Origin: Bacilli bacterium
GTDB lineage: Bacteria > Bacillota_I > Bacilli_A > RF39 > UBA660
NCBI GenBank assembly: GCA_017477845.1
Contig: JAFUTR010000054.1
Span: 1-36,876, forward strand
Length of the DNA stretch: 36,876 nt
Direction: 5' to 3'
In this document: positions 29,215 to 36,876 of the stretch, piece by piece
How positions within the stretch are numbered: the first letter of the stretch is position 1
Layout: each line of letters opens with the position of its first letter
The notes under the pieces: generated by a model
Databases searched by the model: none
The model's input: only the letters and a program-made list of their open reading frames with translations
What the model was told of the DNA's origin: nothing
Program-made: the position numbers and the translations under genes

Positions 29215-30783
29215 TCAAGAATTTAGATACCTCAATGCATCTTCATATAAATTCTTATATTTAAAAATTACTTCTACACCTCTTTCTTCTGAAATATATA
29301 TTACATCAACAAATTCATTTAATATATTTCGATCAACAAAATCTATTTTGCCTATTTCTTTAATCCTATTAATTCTTGCTATATTTTCATTACTTGATGT
29401 ACTATTATTTATCTCATCTTTTTCTAATAAAATTTTATTTAATTCAAACATATATCTATCTTTAAATATATCCAAATCTTTTTTTGAAATATAATCATTT
29501 TTATAATCCTCTTTTATTTCATTCAAGAGTTTTCTATATTTCTGTTCTTCTTTATCTAATTCGATTAATTTAAACTCTTTATTTTCTTTTTCATATTCTA
29601 AATAAGATAATGATATATCCTTGTTTATCTTCTCATCTAAATTAGTTATCAGTTCAATATATTTATTAATTGTTTCAAGTACAATATCATCTAATTCTTT
29701 TTCAGTAATATAATGCTTAGTACAATTCTTTTTTTTATGATATGCCCCACAATAGAAAAATACATCCTTACCACCTTTTTTAGCAAATTTATACATTGAT
29801 GTTTTACAATCAGCACATTTTAAAAATCCAGTATATCTATACATTTTCCCATTTGGACTAACTCTAGCATTTCTATTATAAAGAATATCTTGAACTTGAT
29901 TAAATATTTCTTCTTTAATTATAGCTTTATGATGATTAGGAACTATAATCCATTCATCTTCTGGTACTCTTAAAGTATTATGCTTTTTATGGCTTATTCG
30001 TGCTTTCTTACCTTGTATCAAAGTACCTATATAGTTTCTATTTTTAATAACTTTATCTAATGAATCTAATGTCCATTTACTTCCAACATTAGGATTTTTA
30101 CTATTACAAAAATCTTTTAGGTATTTTGCTGGAGTTGGTGTATGAGTATCATTTAATTTTTTAATTATCTCTTGCCTACTCATTCCACTCATTGCCATTT
30201 TAAATATATTCTTAATTATTTTTTCAGCTTCTTTATCAACTATAAATTTATGGTTATCATCTGGGTCTTTTAAATATCCAAAAGGAGCAACAACTCCAAT
30301 AAAATTCCCATTCTTCTTACTTATAGCAAAAGAAGTTCTAATTTTTTTTGAAATATCTTTTGCAAAACTCTCATTCATTAAATTTTTAAAATAAACTTCT
30401 AACGAATTCATTGATTCAGGTCTTAAATAAGAATCTACATTATCATTAACAGCAATAAATCTAATTTTATATCTAGGAATAGTATCATCAATAAAATGAC
30501 CAACATTTATATAATTTCTACCTAATCTAGATAAATCCTTTACTACTACACAATTTATTTTTCTACTACGAATATCATCCATCATTTCTTGAAATGAAGG
30601 TCTATCAAAATCTGTTCCTGTATATCCATCATCAGCATAACATTTATATACAGTTATATCTTTCATATCAGACAAATGATAATTTATTAAATTTCTTTGA
30701 TTTGTAATACTATTAGATTCTAATTTATCATCATCGTCATCTGATGATAATCTTAAGTAAATACCAGTTCTCCATTTTGACAT
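29215..30783 (-). CDS. Large serine recombinase (second of tandem pair)
   Basis: 522 residues. Resolvase catalytic domain at about 5-155: nucleophile Ser13 in YLRLSSDD, then ADDGYTGTDFDRPSFQEMMD and VVKDLSRLGRN with the catalytic arginines. The recombinase domain (about 175-290; RNYIGTLIQGKK) precedes a zinc ribbon (CADCKTSMYKF ... FYCGAYHKKKNC) and a coiled-coil tail. It catalyses site-specific integration and excision like TnpX-type transposon recombinases. It overlaps its partner by 31 bases, with GGGAG ten bases before ATG. All catalytic residues seem intact. It sits at the very end of the element. Confidence 0.93.
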   Translation of the reverse strand: MSKWRTGIYLRLSSDDDDDKLESNSITNQRNLINYHLSDMKDITVYKCYADDGYTGTDFDRPSFQEMMDDIRSRKINCVVVKDLSRLGRNYINVGHFIDDTIPRYKIRFIAVNDNVDSYLRPESMNSLEVYFKNLMNESFAKDISKKIRTSFAISKKNGNFIGVVAPFGYLKDPDDNHKFIVDKEAEKIIKNIFKMAMSGMSRQEIIKKLNDTHTPTPAKYLKDFCNSKNPNVGSKWTLDSLDKVIKNRNYIGTLIQGKKARISHKKHNTLRVPEDEWIIVPNHHKAIIKEEIFNQVQDILYNRNARVSPNGKMYRYTGFLKCADCKTSMYKFAKKGGKDVFFYCGAYHKKKNCTKHYITEKELDDIVLETINKYIELITNLDEKINKDISLSYLEYEKENKEFKLIELDKEEQKYRKLLNEIKEDYKNDYISKKDLDIFKDRYMFELNKILLEKDEINNSTSSNENIARINRIKEIGKIDFVDRNILNEFVDVIYISEERGVEVIFKYKNLYEDALRYLNS

Positions 30784-32453
30784 GTTTTAACAGCTCCCTC
30801 ATTTTCAAGATAGGTTAATAATTCTTTATACTCATTTTTGTATTTAAAATGAATATCTATATTACCTTCTTCTGTTACATAAATAACTTCTATTAATTCT
30901 TTTAAAACTTCTTTAGTTACCTTCTTAATTTTTTTGTTTCTTCTATAATGATCTATCCAATAATCATTTCTTTTTATCATTTTTATATTTTCTCTATATG
31001 TTTGAGTAATTAATTCTAATTTTTCTTCTATCAATTTAATATCATCTTCAATTATTTTTGATTGTTTTAAAAATTCTTCTTTATCTATATTATTGAATTT
31101 CCAATCTTCATATAATTGAATCTTTTTATTCTTTAAATTATCAATTTTTATTTCTGCAATTCTTGTATTGTTTTTATATTCACTTTCAACTGTATCTCGA
31201 TTATTTCTCAAATATAGTTTTTTTAAACTTCTATCTAATTCAATAACTAACTTAACTTGTAATTTTATAGCTTCTAAAACCATATCATTTAAATCTTCAG
31301 TTTTTATTTTATGAGAAGTACAAGATTTTTTACTTATATATAAATAAGTATTACAGAAATAATTTGATAGCTGGCGATTTCCTCTATTATCTTCTTGCTT
31401 ATACATTGCTTTACCACAATCAGCACATTTTAGTATTCCATTATATATGGAATATGTTTTTTCTTCACTTCTAACTTTAAGTTTTGTGTTAGTTTTTATT
31501 AAGCTCTGAATTTTATCAAATTGTGCTTTTGTAATGATTGGTTCATGTGTATTTTCACATCTTATCCAATCTTCTTTAGCAACACTTAAAACTTTATGAT
31601 TTTTAAAACTTTCTCTCTTTGTTTTTAATTGAGTTAAATTTCCAATATATATTTCACTAGTCAACATTCTTCCTATAGTAGATGTTGACCATTTATATTT
31701 TATTGTTTCTGCTTCTGGATCAAGTGAAAGTTTATATTTCTTTCTTCTTTGTATTTCTTTTCTACATAAAATATTGTTATCATTTAAATACTTTGTAATA
31801 GTAACTCTTCCATCACCTTTAGAAGCCATATCAAATATTAACTTAACATTCTTAACTTCATCTGGTTCAACTACTAGATGATGTTTGTCATTCTCATCAA
31901 AAGTATAACCATAAGGAGAAGTTCCACCAACAAATTTACCACTACTTGCCATAGTAAAATATGCAGATGTTACTTTCTTAGAAATATCTCGAGCATAACT
32001 TTCATTTATTAAATTTTTTATAGGTACAATTAAGTCATTTATTGAATCTGGTCTTTTAAATGAATCTACATTATCATTGATAGCTATTATCCTTATATTA
32101 TATATAGGAAAAATATCTTCAATATATTTTCCTACCTCTAAGCTATTTCTACCTAATCTAGATAAGTCTTTTACAATAATAGTATTAATTCTACCATCAG
32201 TAATATCTCTCATCATTTCTTGAAATCCAGGTCTATCAAAATCTGTTCCTGTATATCCATCATCAATATAATAATCTACAATTGTCATATTGTTTTCTTT
32301 TGATATGAAGTTATTTATCATCTCTTTTTGATTAGTAATTGTGTTTGATTCTTTATCTTCATTATCATCAAATGATCTTCTTGTATAAACACCAACTAAC
32401 CAATTAGCAACAGTAGAATTTTTACTAAGTTTTTTATTACCTCTACCTGCCAT
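30753..32453 (-). CDS. Large serine recombinase (first of tandem pair)
   Basis: 566 residues, with an extra ~15-residue N-terminal lead. Catalytic Ser27 is in VYTRRSFDD; YIDDGYTGTDFDRPGFQEMM and IIVKDLSRLGRNSLE carry the other active-site residues. The recombinase domain contains GGTSPYGYTFDE and SEIYIGNLTQLKTKRE; the zinc ribbon is CADCGKAMYKQ ... YFCNTYLYISKKSC, followed by a charged coiled coil. It is similar to, but clearly diverged from, its downstream partner, so both may be required. AAGGAGAA precedes the ATG. Confidence 0.93.
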   Translation of the reverse strand: MAGRGNKKLSKNSTVANWLVGVYTRRSFDDNEDKESNTITNQKEMINNFISKENNMTIVDYYIDDGYTGTDFDRPGFQEMMRDITDGRINTIIVKDLSRLGRNSLEVGKYIEDIFPIYNIRIIAINDNVDSFKRPDSINDLIVPIKNLINESYARDISKKVTSAYFTMASSGKFVGGTSPYGYTFDENDKHHLVVEPDEVKNVKLIFDMASKGDGRVTITKYLNDNNILCRKEIQRRKKYKLSLDPEAETIKYKWSTSTIGRMLTSEIYIGNLTQLKTKRESFKNHKVLSVAKEDWIRCENTHEPIITKAQFDKIQSLIKTNTKLKVRSEEKTYSIYNGILKCADCGKAMYKQEDNRGNRQLSNYFCNTYLYISKKSCTSHKIKTEDLNDMVLEAIKLQVKLVIELDRSLKKLYLRNNRDTVESEYKNNTRIAEIKIDNLKNKKIQLYEDWKFNNIDKEEFLKQSKIIEDDIKLIEEKLELITQTYRENIKMIKRNDYWIDHYRRNKKIKKVTKEVLKELIEVIYVTEEGNIDIHFKYKNEYKELLTYLENEGAVKTCQNGELVFT

Positions 32454-32517
32454 AGATATTCTCCTTCCACTTTATAAAATAATATTTGAAATTAAGAATT
32501 TATTCTAAGGTGCAAAA

Positions 32518-32784
32518 TTATTTATAAAGATTCCTAAGTACATTAGTTAGACAGTCATCTGCAGTCTTATCAGTATCAGAAAAACCAATTTTAATTAATT
32601 TTCCATTATGCTTAAATACATATGGATTTTTTACTGTATTTAAAAAATCAAGTATTCTATCATTACTTGACTTTCTCTTACTCACTTTAATATCTGTAAT
32701 TTCATCAACTTCATTGATATCTATTTCAGATAGTGGGATATTTTCATATTTATTTAATTTTTCTTTTAGTTTGTCTATTTTCAT
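32518..32784 (-). CDS. Small mobile-element protein, DUF6870-like
   Basis: 88 residues. The second half, LDFLNTVKNPYVFKHNGKLI followed by IGFSDTDKTADDCLTNVL, has the NPY-hydrophobic and F-TDT-LEDCL style of the small DUF6870 proteins often found beside serine recombinases in gut Firmicutes elements. Function unknown. AGGTGGTTCT precedes the ATG. It lies between a 67-aa gene and the recombinases, probably in one operon. Confidence 0.6.
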   Translation of the reverse strand: MKIDKLKEKLNKYENIPLSEIDINEVDEITDIKVSKRKSSNDRILDFLNTVKNPYVFKHNGKLIKIGFSDTDKTADDCLTNVLRNLYK

Positions 32785-32792
32785 AGAACCAC

Positions 32793-32996
32793 CTACTCAA
32801 TAGTTTTATATTCACCATCTATATACATTACTTCTTTAAGATGAATATCAAATCTTCTATAATCTTTTATTTGTTTAGTTTTCATAAAAAAATCAGTTAA
32901 CTCTTTTGTAACTGATTTCTTACTTTCACCACCAACGATCATTGTTGTAATATGTCCATCATTATCTATAATTGCTCTATATGTCTTTTTTTTCAT
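32793..32996 (-). CDS. 67-aa mobile-element protein, unknown
   Basis: 67 residues, beginning MKKKTYRAIIDNDGHITTMI and containing a lysine-rich helix (KKSVTKELTDFFMKTKQIKD). AAAGGAGAGAACAAG precedes the ATG, inside the end of the 47-aa gene, which it overlaps by 20 bases. No family recognised. Confidence 0.65.
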   Translation of the reverse strand: MKKKTYRAIIDNDGHITTMIVGGESKKSVTKELTDFFMKTKQIKDYRRFDIHLKEVMYIDGEYKTIE

Positions 32997-33120
32997 CTTG
33001 TTCTCTCCTTTTTAAATCTTCTTCCATTTCTCGATCAGCCCATGAAGCTACTTTGCAAGAACATATTGTAAACAATCCCATTAATACTAAAAATACTATT
33101 CCTAAAATTTTACCTAACAT
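32977..33120 (-). CDS. 47-aa single-pass membrane protein
   Basis: An open frame of 47 codons starting MLGKILGIVFLVLMGLFTIC, with a hydrophobic segment at residues 4-20, a Cys-Ser-Cys at about 20-22, then VASWADREMEEDLKRREQ, a charged tail. AAAGGAAAATATTT precedes the ATG and the end overlaps the next gene by 20 bases in another frame, so the gene is part of the operon. The cysteine context is not a standard lipobox. Function unknown. Confidence 0.6.
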   Translation of the reverse strand: MLGKILGIVFLVLMGLFTICSCKVASWADREMEEDLKRREQDEKKDI

Positions 33121-33160
33121 AAATATTTTCCTTTCTTACAACAATTAACTTTTTCCAAAT

Positions 33161-33182
33161 AAAAAAATCACCGAAGTGATTT
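33161..33182 (-). terminator. Terminator with UUCG tetraloop
   Basis: Minus strand: AAATCAC TTCG GTGATTT followed by a run of T. A very stable short hairpin that overlaps the stop codon of the gene ending at 33182. Confidence 0.85.
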
Positions 33183-33630: not shown

Positions 33631-33682
33631 TAAAAAAGAAGAGAAATAATGGCAATTTAATAAAAGCTACTACTTCTCTTCT
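33631..33682 (-). terminator. Terminator or attenuator before the ArpU-like gene
   Basis: Minus-strand RNA: a 17-base stem, 5' arm AGAAGAGAAGTAGTAGC and 3' arm GCCATTATTTCTCTTCT, with two G-U pairs and one mismatch, a 12-base loop, and then TTTTTT. It stands 18 bases before the next start codon and 140 bases after the promoter. Confidence 0.75.
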
Positions 33683-33816
33683 ATTTTTAACTTTAACTTT
33701 GGCTTTGAGGGGTCGAATCCCTTTATCGAACTTTGCTTTGAAGATAAATACTTCAACTTATTAAAAACAATTAGTTCCATAAAGACCACTTCCAATCCCA
33801 TCAAACCACTTAACAT
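33670..33816 (-). CDS. Possible 48-aa leader peptide
   Basis: An open frame of 48 codons beginning MLSGLMGLEVVFMELIVFNK and ending in KGFDPSKPKLKLKIEEK. Its stop codon is inside the 5' arm of the downstream terminator-like hairpin. The predicted transcript start is only about 8 bases before the first ATG, so there is no ribosome binding site for it; an ATG five codons later follows AAGTGG. It could be a real leader peptide or chance within a structured RNA. Confidence 0.3.
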   Translation of the reverse strand: MLSGLMGLEVVFMELIVFNKLKYLSSKQSSIKGFDPSKPKLKLKIEEK

Positions 33817-33830
33817 ATAAATTGTTATTT

Positions 33831-33858
33831 ATTATATAGTTTTCTTGGAAAAAGTCAA
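33831..33858 (-). promoter_or_regulatory. Strong promoter of the leader/ArpU-like transcript
   Basis: TTGACT (33858-33853), 16-base spacer, perfect TATAAT (33836-33831). It is the best sigma-A promoter of the accessory region and directs transcription toward the recombinases. Confidence 0.8.
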
Positions 33859-33912: not shown

Positions 33913-33985
33913 CTATATTTTATCATACTCAGATAGGAAAACAAGTGGTGAATTATATAGGTGTTTAGGGGGTGGAATTTTCGCT

Positions 33986-35655: not shown

Positions 35656-35694
35656 AAAGGACTATACAAACATATTTTGCATAAGTCCTTTTTT
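35654..35694. terminator. Bidirectional terminator between XRE gene and hsdS
   Basis: AAAAAGGACT and AGTCCTTTTTT pair around an AT-rich loop; T or A runs on both sides serve both convergent genes, and the stem overlaps the hsdS stop codon. Confidence 0.75.
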
Positions 35695-36846
35695 AAATAA
35701 ATCCAATTTAGATAACTTATTACTCTCTTTATCTATAAGATTATCTATAATGCTTAAAATACTAGAGTCTTTTTCTTGTTTTTCAATTGATGGTATAACT
35801 AGAGGAATATTTAATATATCTTCTTTTTTTAAGTTAGTTTGATTAACTCCATCATCAAATTTTAAATAATAGAGATTTCTATTTAATAAATAAAATAAGT
35901 ATTTAGAATTAATTTTATTGTTATCTTTTATTTGAATTCTACAAATTCTTTGATTTAAACTATATTTTTCATCTTCATCTATATAATAACATTTTGCCAA
36001 TGCCTTACCATTAGGAAGATCACTCATAACCATAGTAATATCATTTTTATACAAAGGTGTTAGTTGTTCAGAACATTTTTTTATTATAGCTCCTTCAGTA
36101 GATATAAATTTTGAATTTATCAATATGTATTTTCCATTCTCATCAACTATATTTTCATGACCTTTACCATTTTCAAACAATGCTATATCCGACAATAAAT
36201 AATCAGTTCCTTCTACTTCTTTAAATAATTCATTATATAATCCTTTTTTAAATAACTTAAGGTCTTCAATTTTCTTAGATTGTAGTTCTATTTTTTTATC
36301 TAGTAATGATAGAAAATTGGATACCTTAACTTGTTCATTTTTATCTGGATAAGATATACTAAATTTTTCCAATCCTTTAATGGTCAACTGTGGTTGAGCA
36401 GATCCAAAGTTTGTTTTTGAAACTTGATTTTCAAACATTTGAGATTTCATATAAGAATACAAATATTTAGGAATAACACTATCATTATTTCTAATTATAA
36501 CCATGCCAGAGTTTATTCTAACATTATCATAAGGTATAACATTATCATATAATACAACATTACCAACAGTACCTCTAGTAGTTAATACTATATCATTTCT
36601 GATCAACTTACCATTTCTTAATAATTCATCTTTTTCTTTAGTAATAAATAATTTATTATTAAAATTAAAACCTTGTTTTGTAACATTACCAGCATTTAAA
36701 AATAAACAGTATTCATTATCAAAAAAATCATTTTCTTTAGGATAATTTTTTCCTCTATCTCCATCTATGATAGATGATAGTTCAGATAATTTTTCATTTT
36801 TCCATTCAGAATTAAATTCTTTAAATCTTAATTTAGGCTTACTCAT
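35662..36846 (-). CDS. hsdS: Type I restriction-modification specificity subunit HsdS
   Basis: 394 residues with the two-repeat architecture of HsdS. The N-terminus KPKLRFKEFNSEWKNEKLSE is typical. Target recognition domain 1 spans about 20-165 and ends with SQPQLTIKGLEKF-like AQPQLTIKGLEKFSISYPD, followed by a conserved helix (QVKVSNFLSLLDKKIELQ). Domain 2 spans about 215-350 and ends VNQTNLKKEDILNIPL, then a second conserved helix (KDSSILSIIDNLIDKES). It determines the DNA sequence bound by the HsdM/HsdR complex. GGTGAGATA precedes the ATG. The preceding gene, seen only as a tail, is probably hsdM. Confidence 0.95.
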   Translation of the reverse strand: MSKPKLRFKEFNSEWKNEKLSELSSIIDGDRGKNYPKENDFFDNEYCLFLNAGNVTKQGFNFNNKLFITKEKDELLRNGKLIRNDIVLTTRGTVGNVVLYDNVIPYDNVRINSGMVIIRNNDSVIPKYLYSYMKSQMFENQVSKTNFGSAQPQLTIKGLEKFSISYPDKNEQVKVSNFLSLLDKKIELQSKKIEDLKLFKKGLYNELFKEVEGTDYLLSDIALFENGKGHENIVDENGKYILINSKFISTEGAIIKKCSEQLTPLYKNDITMVMSDLPNGKALAKCYYIDEDEKYSLNQRICRIQIKDNNKINSKYLFYLLNRNLYYLKFDDGVNQTNLKKEDILNIPLVIPSIEKQEKDSSILSIIDNLIDKESNKLSKLDLFKKGLMQNMFV

Positions 36847-36850
36847 TATC

Positions 36851-36876
36851 TCACCACCAGTCCTTAAGTTTAATAA
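36851..36876 (-). CDS. C-terminal tail of a probable hsdM (partial)
   Basis: The only open frame at the window edge that runs into a stop near the hsdS start ends in IKLKDWW and TGA at 36851-36853, four bases before the hsdS ATG. Close spacing before hsdS fits the methyltransferase subunit hsdM. Only seven residues are visible, so identity is inferred from position. Confidence 0.4.

Follow-up and report, generated by a model that had tools for sequence, protein, structure and literature searches.

The segment described here, on the minus strand of the window (the whole 36,876-nt stretch of DNA that we analyzed), is the control region of a mobile element carried by a family of gut bacteria. 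We read it as a translation-dependent transcription attenuator placed before the element's ArpU-related regulator gene, a reading to which we give a probability of about 0.55 and in which we infer the part played by the ribosome. The regulator would then probably be made only when the predicted terminator T3 is overridden, most likely by a ribosome reading a short open reading frame (ORF) in the leader. The arrangement of the parts (Table 1) has the geometry of an attenuator, in which transcription has to get past a predicted terminator. Attenuators built on a leader ORF are familiar from genes for biosynthesis, resistance and pili; in the present case one would stand directly before the regulator gene of integrative elements themselves, and among the matches listed in a search of the open-access literature, none described this arrangement in its title or in the opening of its abstract.

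Table 1. Features of the leader segment and its surroundings, in the direction of transcription.
Feature	Position	Strand	Basis or remark
P1, upstream promoter-like site, ends TAAAAT, then ATAGTAAAATG	33917-33945	-	alignment of close relatives
T1, hairpin and T-run directly 3′ of P1	33872-33910	-	dG -12.3
P2, promoter TTGACT-16-TATAAT	33858-33831	-	11/12 consensus matches
ACAATTTATATG near predicted RNA 5′ end	33814-33825	-	CAATT survey
Leader stem, 5′ strand, holds Shine-Dalgarno (SD) site and AUG of leader ORF	33773-33809	-	RNAalifold
SD site GGAAGTGG of leader ORF	33786-33793	-	
Leader ORF, 36 codons and stop (MELIVFNKLKYLSSKQSSIKGFDPSKPKLKLKIEEK)	33670-33780	-	second stop 33669-33667
Leader stem, 3′ strand, inside distal leader ORF	33701-33732	-	alignment and covariation
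T3, predicted intrinsic terminator hairpin	33637-33682	-	dG -18.0 kcal/mol
Sigma-region-4-like, ArpU-related regulator gene, 145 aa	33182-33619	-	PHROG 248
T4, small UUCG hairpin and T-run directly 3′ of regulator gene	33160-33182	-	seven-pair stem, dG -4.5
Co-directional genes: 47 aa, 67 aa, DUF6870 (88 aa), two large serine recombinases	29215-33120	-	

The predicted leader transcript runs from P2 for about 190 nt and ends at T3. P2 is the strong promoter that a sequence-only reading of this DNA had picked out, with no strand given; it was found again, and it is kept in relatives, although the number of promoter-like matches as such in this AT-rich region (29, with 35.5 expected) is not above chance. 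The same reading had placed a 17-bp hairpin with a T run before the gene, and such a hairpin is present (33682-33637, with a U-tract of six T at 33636-33631), but its stem is made up of 14 contiguous pairs and two inner runs of 2. Between the U-tract and the regulator start codon lie 11 to 17 nt, depending on which ATG is chosen. Downstream, T4 falls below the strength threshold of our scan for further terminators, which returned none in the window, and stronger hairpins (dG ≤ -7) occupy its position in 12 of the 22 clusters listed. A GTPase gene with a 50S-ribosome-binding GTPase domain adjoins the recombinase set.

Upstream of P2, the P1 pattern occurs before the gene in 25 of 51 clusters, a raw count given without a chance expectation, and hairpins similar to T1 are found at the same place in several relatives. 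Across P1 and T1 (33945-33872, minus strand), several relatives show TGTCAAG, TATAAT, ATAGTAAAATG and, immediately after, a terminator-like hairpin; tiny ATG-codon-stop ORFs at P1 were seen by eye not to be conserved in relatives. Near the predicted RNA 5′ end, 18 of 34 clusters have CAATT after a -10-like box, where mononucleotide shuffles give an expectation of 2.8. The CAATT site of the window (33825-33814, minus strand) forms, by eye, a distant inverted repeat with AATTGTTAT upstream of P2, and such sites are possibly repressor operators.

The arrangement was assessed across the bacterial family using upstream DNA from 71 of the 89 regulator matches listed, plus further loci. Of 71 ArpU-like loci, 53 had a terminator (dG ≤ -11) whose end lay 8-45 nt upstream of the start codon, as against 15 of 339 background genes, the latter drawn from 20 stretches (L117-L136) of 12 genomes of the same family with gene starts called by a simple SD rule. 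Dropped before this count were L029 (E 0.3, not a homologue), three loci with too little upstream DNA (L039, L041, L058), three with an unusable start (L060, L068, L088), the duplicates L038, L042, L044 to L048 and L072, and two copies of the window's own leader (L022, L043); L055, whose start was mis-called and whose leader is the same as that of L056, was also left out of the 70-locus ORF counts that follow. At a threshold of dG -8, 54 of the 70 loci had a terminator and 16 lacked T3.

In 46 of the 54 terminator-bearing loci, an SD-led ORF (ATG start, at least 15 codons, SD of -6 kcal/mol or better) reaches the hairpin, where dinucleotide shuffles give an expectation of 0.96. Some near-identical loci remain in the locus counts (for example L069/L070, L080/L081, L089/L090, L030/L106), which is corrected by counting clusters at 70% protein identity: there are 51 of these, 37 have a terminator, and 29 of the 37 have the ORF (0.58 expected). 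The first tally of leader ORFs was selected for reaching the hairpin, and the shuffle and co-occurrence counts are its controlled versions. By co-occurrence, the ORF was found in 47 of 54 loci with T3 and in 2 of 16 without (Fisher 5.6e-8), or in 30 of 37 and 2 of 14 clusters, respectively (p 2e-5). Such an ORF stood before 30 of 321 ordinary gene starts. Since loci lacking T3, such as L104 and L107, have a P2-like promoter directly before the SD of the gene, the leader ORF and T3 behave as one module.

The position of the promoters bears on whether this module is obligatory. By consensus only, a P2 of at least 10/12 lies in the P2 region of 24 of 34 clusters (3.7 expected), whereas promoters of this quality are found in the last 120 nt before the gene in none of the 34 (0.6 expected), so transcription of the regulator gene most likely has to pass T3, as far as promoter sequence can tell. 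The arrangement recurs across the family with leader peptides in which no common motif was detected: the one pattern that we tested was shared by 8 of 34 peptides (4.7 when shuffled; 59 of 1000 shuffles as high; the leader start of L096 was corrected by hand for this test), and none of eight peptides scanned matched Pfam.

We then considered which frame of the leader is read. The sequence-only reading had favored a frame of 48 codons, starting at 33816, and had mentioned a second one ending KWFDGIGSGLYGTNCF. Leader and terminator of the window can be aligned with those of seven relatives, and in four of these (L033, L034, L036 and L037) codon 2 of the 48-codon frame is a stop (ATG TAA or ATG TAG). 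The second frame lacks an ATG in the window, and in the same four relatives it comes immediately after a stop; the conservation of its DNA is explained by the SD, the AUG and one strand of the leader stem, all of which it contains. The 48-codon frame and the WFDGIGSGLYGTNC frame were rejected on account of stops in relatives. The supported ORF instead has 36 codons, starts at the ATG at 33780 behind GGAAGTGG, and is present in the window and in L033-L037.

For the five pairs of the window with L033-L037, pN/pS in this ORF was 0.31-0.43, compared with 0.23-0.26 in the regulator gene for window pairs, while the other two frames of the leader DNA gave 0.88-4.49 in two window pairs (L034, L035) and 1.02-1.80 in two further, non-window pairs. 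Among the relatives themselves the leader ORF gave 0.25-0.73, the highest value coming from L033-L035; for L033-L034 the ratio is undefined, with four nonsynonymous changes and no synonymous one. These values point to in-frame purifying selection on the leader ORF in the window's clade. The outcome that the sequence-only reading had named as refuting it, a lack of conserved structure or frame, was not seen: both are kept in close relatives, with the reservations that the frame concerned is the 36-codon one and that L023 has lost the ORF while retaining the stem and T3. L040 carries a frameshift that gives a longer ORF with a wholly different C-terminus, and its frame still crosses T3.

The leader ORF ends, as the sequence-only reading had correctly seen, inside the 5′ arm of the hairpin, at a double stop (TAG TAG, 33672-33667). 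This position had been its argument for control by a ribosome, and as a sole argument it fails: among ordinary genes with a strong terminator in related genomes, 23 of 33 likewise stop inside the hairpin. Stops inside versus before the hairpin number 40:1 for leader ORFs and 23:10 for ordinary genes (p 0.0017), a difference in favor of the attenuator reading, in a comparison that omits ten leader ORFs running past the hairpin and in which the leader ORFs were chosen for ending near T3. According to the cited portion of a review (PMC7858274), a short distance from stop to terminator is a proxy for RNA polymerase outrunning ribosomes, or runaway transcription, and the 23 of 33 may be a signature of this state in the present lineage. 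If transcription is uncoupled, a ribosome would often arrive too late at T3, which counts against the ribosome-driven reading.

The same stops fit another explanation, in which P2, the small ORF and T3 make up a complete short mRNA or stable RNA of about 190 nt, and the regulator is served by constitutive leakage through T3, unregulated at that point. Stops inside terminators are normal in these genomes, and purifying selection at the protein level is what a real small protein would show. The peptides, however, have neither a motif beyond chance nor a Pfam match while their position is constant, the ORF and T3 come and go jointly before one gene family, and the end of the L040 peptide can differ wholly with T3 still being crossed; we therefore hold this explanation to be unlikely. 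A free-standing RNA, another option of the sequence-only reading, is possible as the terminated product of the leader.

Under the attenuator reading, most P2 transcripts would by default stop at T3. If a ribosome had loaded onto the leader ORF and arrived at the end of that ORF with RNA polymerase still at T3, it would cover the 5′ arm of the hairpin and keep T3 from forming, and readthrough would allow transcription of the regulator and the downstream integration genes (in some relatives, of conjugation genes as well). Such overriding of T3 by a ribosome is plausible, because the ORF is found in nearly every T3 locus and is apparently under selection in the window's clade, because ORF and T3 behave like a module, and because translation dependence is proven in the pil1 case discussed below; the ability of the frameshifted L040 to cross T3 and the covariation of the SD/AUG stem support it further. 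As a candidate competing antiterminator, a possible hairpin (AATAGAAG...CTTTTATT) was seen by eye only. Against it stand, besides the ordinary genes that stop inside hairpins, the loss of the ORF in L023, the presence of T3 without an ORF in L075 and L078, and the 16 of 70 loci without T3. One leader ORF also leaves T1 and T4 unexplained, the SD/AUG stem is limited to a clade, and some pairs of relatives give a less clear leader pN/pS. In E. coli, moreover, the cited part of one study (PMC4824070) finds efficient termination when the terminator lies in the first 100 bp of a coding region, and T3 starts about 100 nt into the leader ORF; on the other side, and in favor of the reading, the same part of that study reports that a terminator a few bp 3′ of a gene was almost completely repressed. 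The attenuator was among the options first proposed for this leader, and it is supported by the enrichment of terminators before the regulator gene, the ORF running into the terminator, the in-frame selection and the lack of P2-quality promoters in between.

One of the closest known parallels is the pil1 locus of Streptococcus gallolyticus. According to the portion of the report consulted (PMC3894217), expression there is high when a frameshift lengthens the leader peptide so that it stops inside the terminator or close to it, and low with shorter peptides. As described there, pil1 resembles the present leader in having a promoter, an SD-led short leader ORF and an intrinsic terminator in a Gram-positive host. 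Its ORF has 38 aa in the low form and is longer in the high forms (36 codons here), its terminator has a dG of -18.7 (-18.0 here), and in its high-expression forms the leader stop lies within or near the hairpin, as it does here. The two differ in that pil1 switches by repeat-number frameshifts and controls pili, whereas here we saw no such repeats and the target is the regulator of a mobile element; in that here, in the window's clade, the distal half of the ORF also seals the SD and AUG; and in that translation dependence is proven for pil1 and inferred here.

A second parallel comes from Tn916, whose tet(M) attenuator is the orf12 leader. The tet(M) leader precedes a tetracycline resistance gene, whereas the present one lies directly before a sigma-like regulator gene. 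What the two have in common is a leader ORF with attenuation in a Gram-positive integrative conjugative element. For tet(M), the attenuation is stated to be relieved by translation inhibitors (PMC9154091).

The leader RNA itself is strongly structured, folding at -55.1 kcal/mol compared with -35.4 for shuffles (z -5.57; 0 of 200 shuffles as low). In the RNAalifold structure of the window and seven relatives, the SD/AUG region and the distal part of the ORF form the two strands of a long stem, and T3 comes after it. In these eight sequences, 11 of 60 leader pairs were changed on both sides, against 5.3 in shuffles (0 of 500 as high). Controls with a slid partner gave 0-5 such pairs against the real 11; these controls are lenient, since it was this very alignment that yielded the structure. 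For the stem, four of five pair measures beat 500 of 500 shuffles and the fifth beat 499, and all five exceeded the slid controls. A pairing that seals the SD was also strong in L024, L049, L051, L053 and L054 (p 0.003-0.03; window p 0.057), whereas a family-wide stem of this kind was not supported, with 6 of 34 clusters at p<0.05 and a Wilcoxon p of 0.38. The SD/AUG stem is thus a feature of a clade and not of the family. A DNA search of 196 related genomes found one whole-leader match besides the window, G029 at 78%; the remaining matches were many, short and mostly due to chance.

Within that clade, the distal half of the ORF would, once transcribed, seal the SD and AUG, so that loading of a ribosome would need to follow soon on emergence of the SD. 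The level of readthrough would then report how promptly host translation starts, or rise when polymerase slows. We offer a self-timed gate of this kind, in which the SD and AUG are open until the distal half is transcribed, only a prompt ribosome overrides T3, and the element thereby reads the translation-initiation capacity of its host, as a speculative extension that we ourselves doubt. If it were true, the regulator, the integrases and the conjugation genes of relatives would be gated without a dedicated ligand or a conserved peptide.

Strong structure would also be expected if a ligand- or protein-sensing leader (a riboswitch, T-box or RAT-type antiterminator) acted on T3, and in a number of loci a recurrent GCAGTA-like element, noted by eye close to a terminator, could compete with the terminator stem. 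Rfam 15, however, had no match at gathering score in the leader segment (the whole window gave only two tRNAs), a permissive Rfam search of the segment returned sub-threshold matches at chance level and no family, a family-wide SD-sealing stem was not supported, and alignments of relatives showed no aptamer-like core shared by the family. The ligand-sensing option of the sequence-only reading is accordingly very improbable in our judgment.

The serial occurrence of T1, T3 and T4, together with some terminators in operons downstream of the regulator, raised the further alternative that the leader is, or is part of, a processive antitermination element like canT of Tn916 or conAn of pLS20, with polymerase made resistant to T3, T4 and later terminators. 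The cited parts of the reports on canT (PMC11658703) and conAn (PMC8955417) describe such logic in Gram-positive elements, in which, as here, terminators inside element operons need overriding for expression of transfer genes, and a conserved, structured RNA directly follows P2 in the window's clade. In L114, in addition, a pLS20_p028-related membrane protein (E 3.5e-23, below the cut-off of the model) is encoded downstream. This alternative leaves the SD-led ORF running into T3, in 46 of 54 loci, without a reason; a leader ORF crossing the terminator is a feature here that is not described for canT or conAn in the cited sections of PMC11658703 and PMC8955417. The RNAs described there are also longer than the present leader (canT has 452 nt, and a 341-nt version is still active; PMC11658703), and pLS20 additionally uses the ConAn1 protein. 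The stem is clade-specific, and the regulator is unrelated to the product of the first gene after the divergent repressor of pLS20 (hhalign prob 0.1). Terminators at downstream junctions are few: single further ones were found in L111, L112, L114 and L116, and their number does not obviously exceed that at co-directional junctions of the background (22 of 274 at dG ≤ -11). The operons of L114 and L116 contain GGACTGTGT...ACACAGTC followed by a T-run. On balance, we find processive antitermination quite unlikely. In pLS20 itself (L150:2495-2523), we also saw by eye a hairpin with a T-run, which precedes the first gene after the divergent repressor by about 40 nt.

The genes that would be under control of the attenuator differ between elements. 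The regulator gene precedes recombinase genes in the window (by Pfam) and in L110, L111 and L113 (by sequence resemblance), and in L112 and L114 it opens an apparent conjugation operon, which encodes a sortase domain in L112 and, in L114, a thioester/SpaA adhesin and an SSB protein beside the membrane protein mentioned above. L116 resembles L112 and L114 by eye in its genes and their order; the one protein scanned from it gave no match.

The regulator gene had no Pfam match, and matched the PHROG 248 'transcriptional activator' profile at E 3.5e-6. Against TIGR01637 (ArpU) it scored 19.2 bits, with a curated cut-off of 43.1, and we call it ArpU-related without counting it as a member of TIGR01637. 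A profile of 38 regulator sequences matched sigma factors (8x6g_H, E 0.002; 1rp3_A, E 0.004). In the predicted structure (pLDDT 82.4), the C-terminal part resembles sigma region 4; a fold search with this model gave no match at E ≤ 0.001, and the best-ranked were mostly sigma factors (for example 3vfz_A, TM 0.86 by target length, E 2.0). The ArpU group of TIGR01637 and PHROG 248 is one that we take to be linked to the RinA-type late regulators of phages. The present regulator is like ArpU/RinA-type proteins in size, in its C-terminal sigma-region-4-like domain and in its weak profile similarity, and unlike them in lying far below the TIGR01637 cut-off and in having no tblastn match in phage and plasmid collections; viral_contigs likewise held no relative. 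Within the window's bacterial family it was found in 72 of 386 genomes and, in a class-wide sample, in 12 of 395, 11 of these 12 (with the window's own among them) being within that family. The nine named relatives are uncultured genomes titled Bacilli, Bacillales, Bacillota, Erysipelotrichaceae or Clostridia, and the titles of four of the nine name deer gut sites.

Across one bacterial family, then, what looks like an attenuator module is kept in position while its peptide changes. If translation dependence holds, activation of these elements would be tied to the host's translational state. The family would also provide a natural test case for ribosome-dependent antitermination against a background of ordinary genes that look uncoupled.

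Three minor observations concern other parts of these elements. Between the regulator and the next gene, tiny SD-led ORFs ending Lys-Ile/Val-Pro-stop occur in 6 of 32 loci, a count given without a chance expectation, namely L026 (= L112:10628-10925), L027, L031, L050 (L115), L056 (L116) and L059, and are absent in the window; their recurrent end (MYIVYNVLKIP, MYKRQKVP, MHKKQKIP, MFKRQKIP, MYILFRKLKIP, MYKYKRLKIP) suggests a candidate ribosome-arrest leader. Stretches of the tandem large serine recombinases (29215-32453, minus strand) cross-match in relatives at about 71% DNA identity, suggesting that the two are a duplicated pair. Lastly, a 394-aa gene at 35662-36846 resembles by eye a type I restriction specificity subunit, and the matching of 36238-36342 and 36788-36876 to relatives L038 and L034 in rearranged or inverted order suggests that this gene may vary by inversion.
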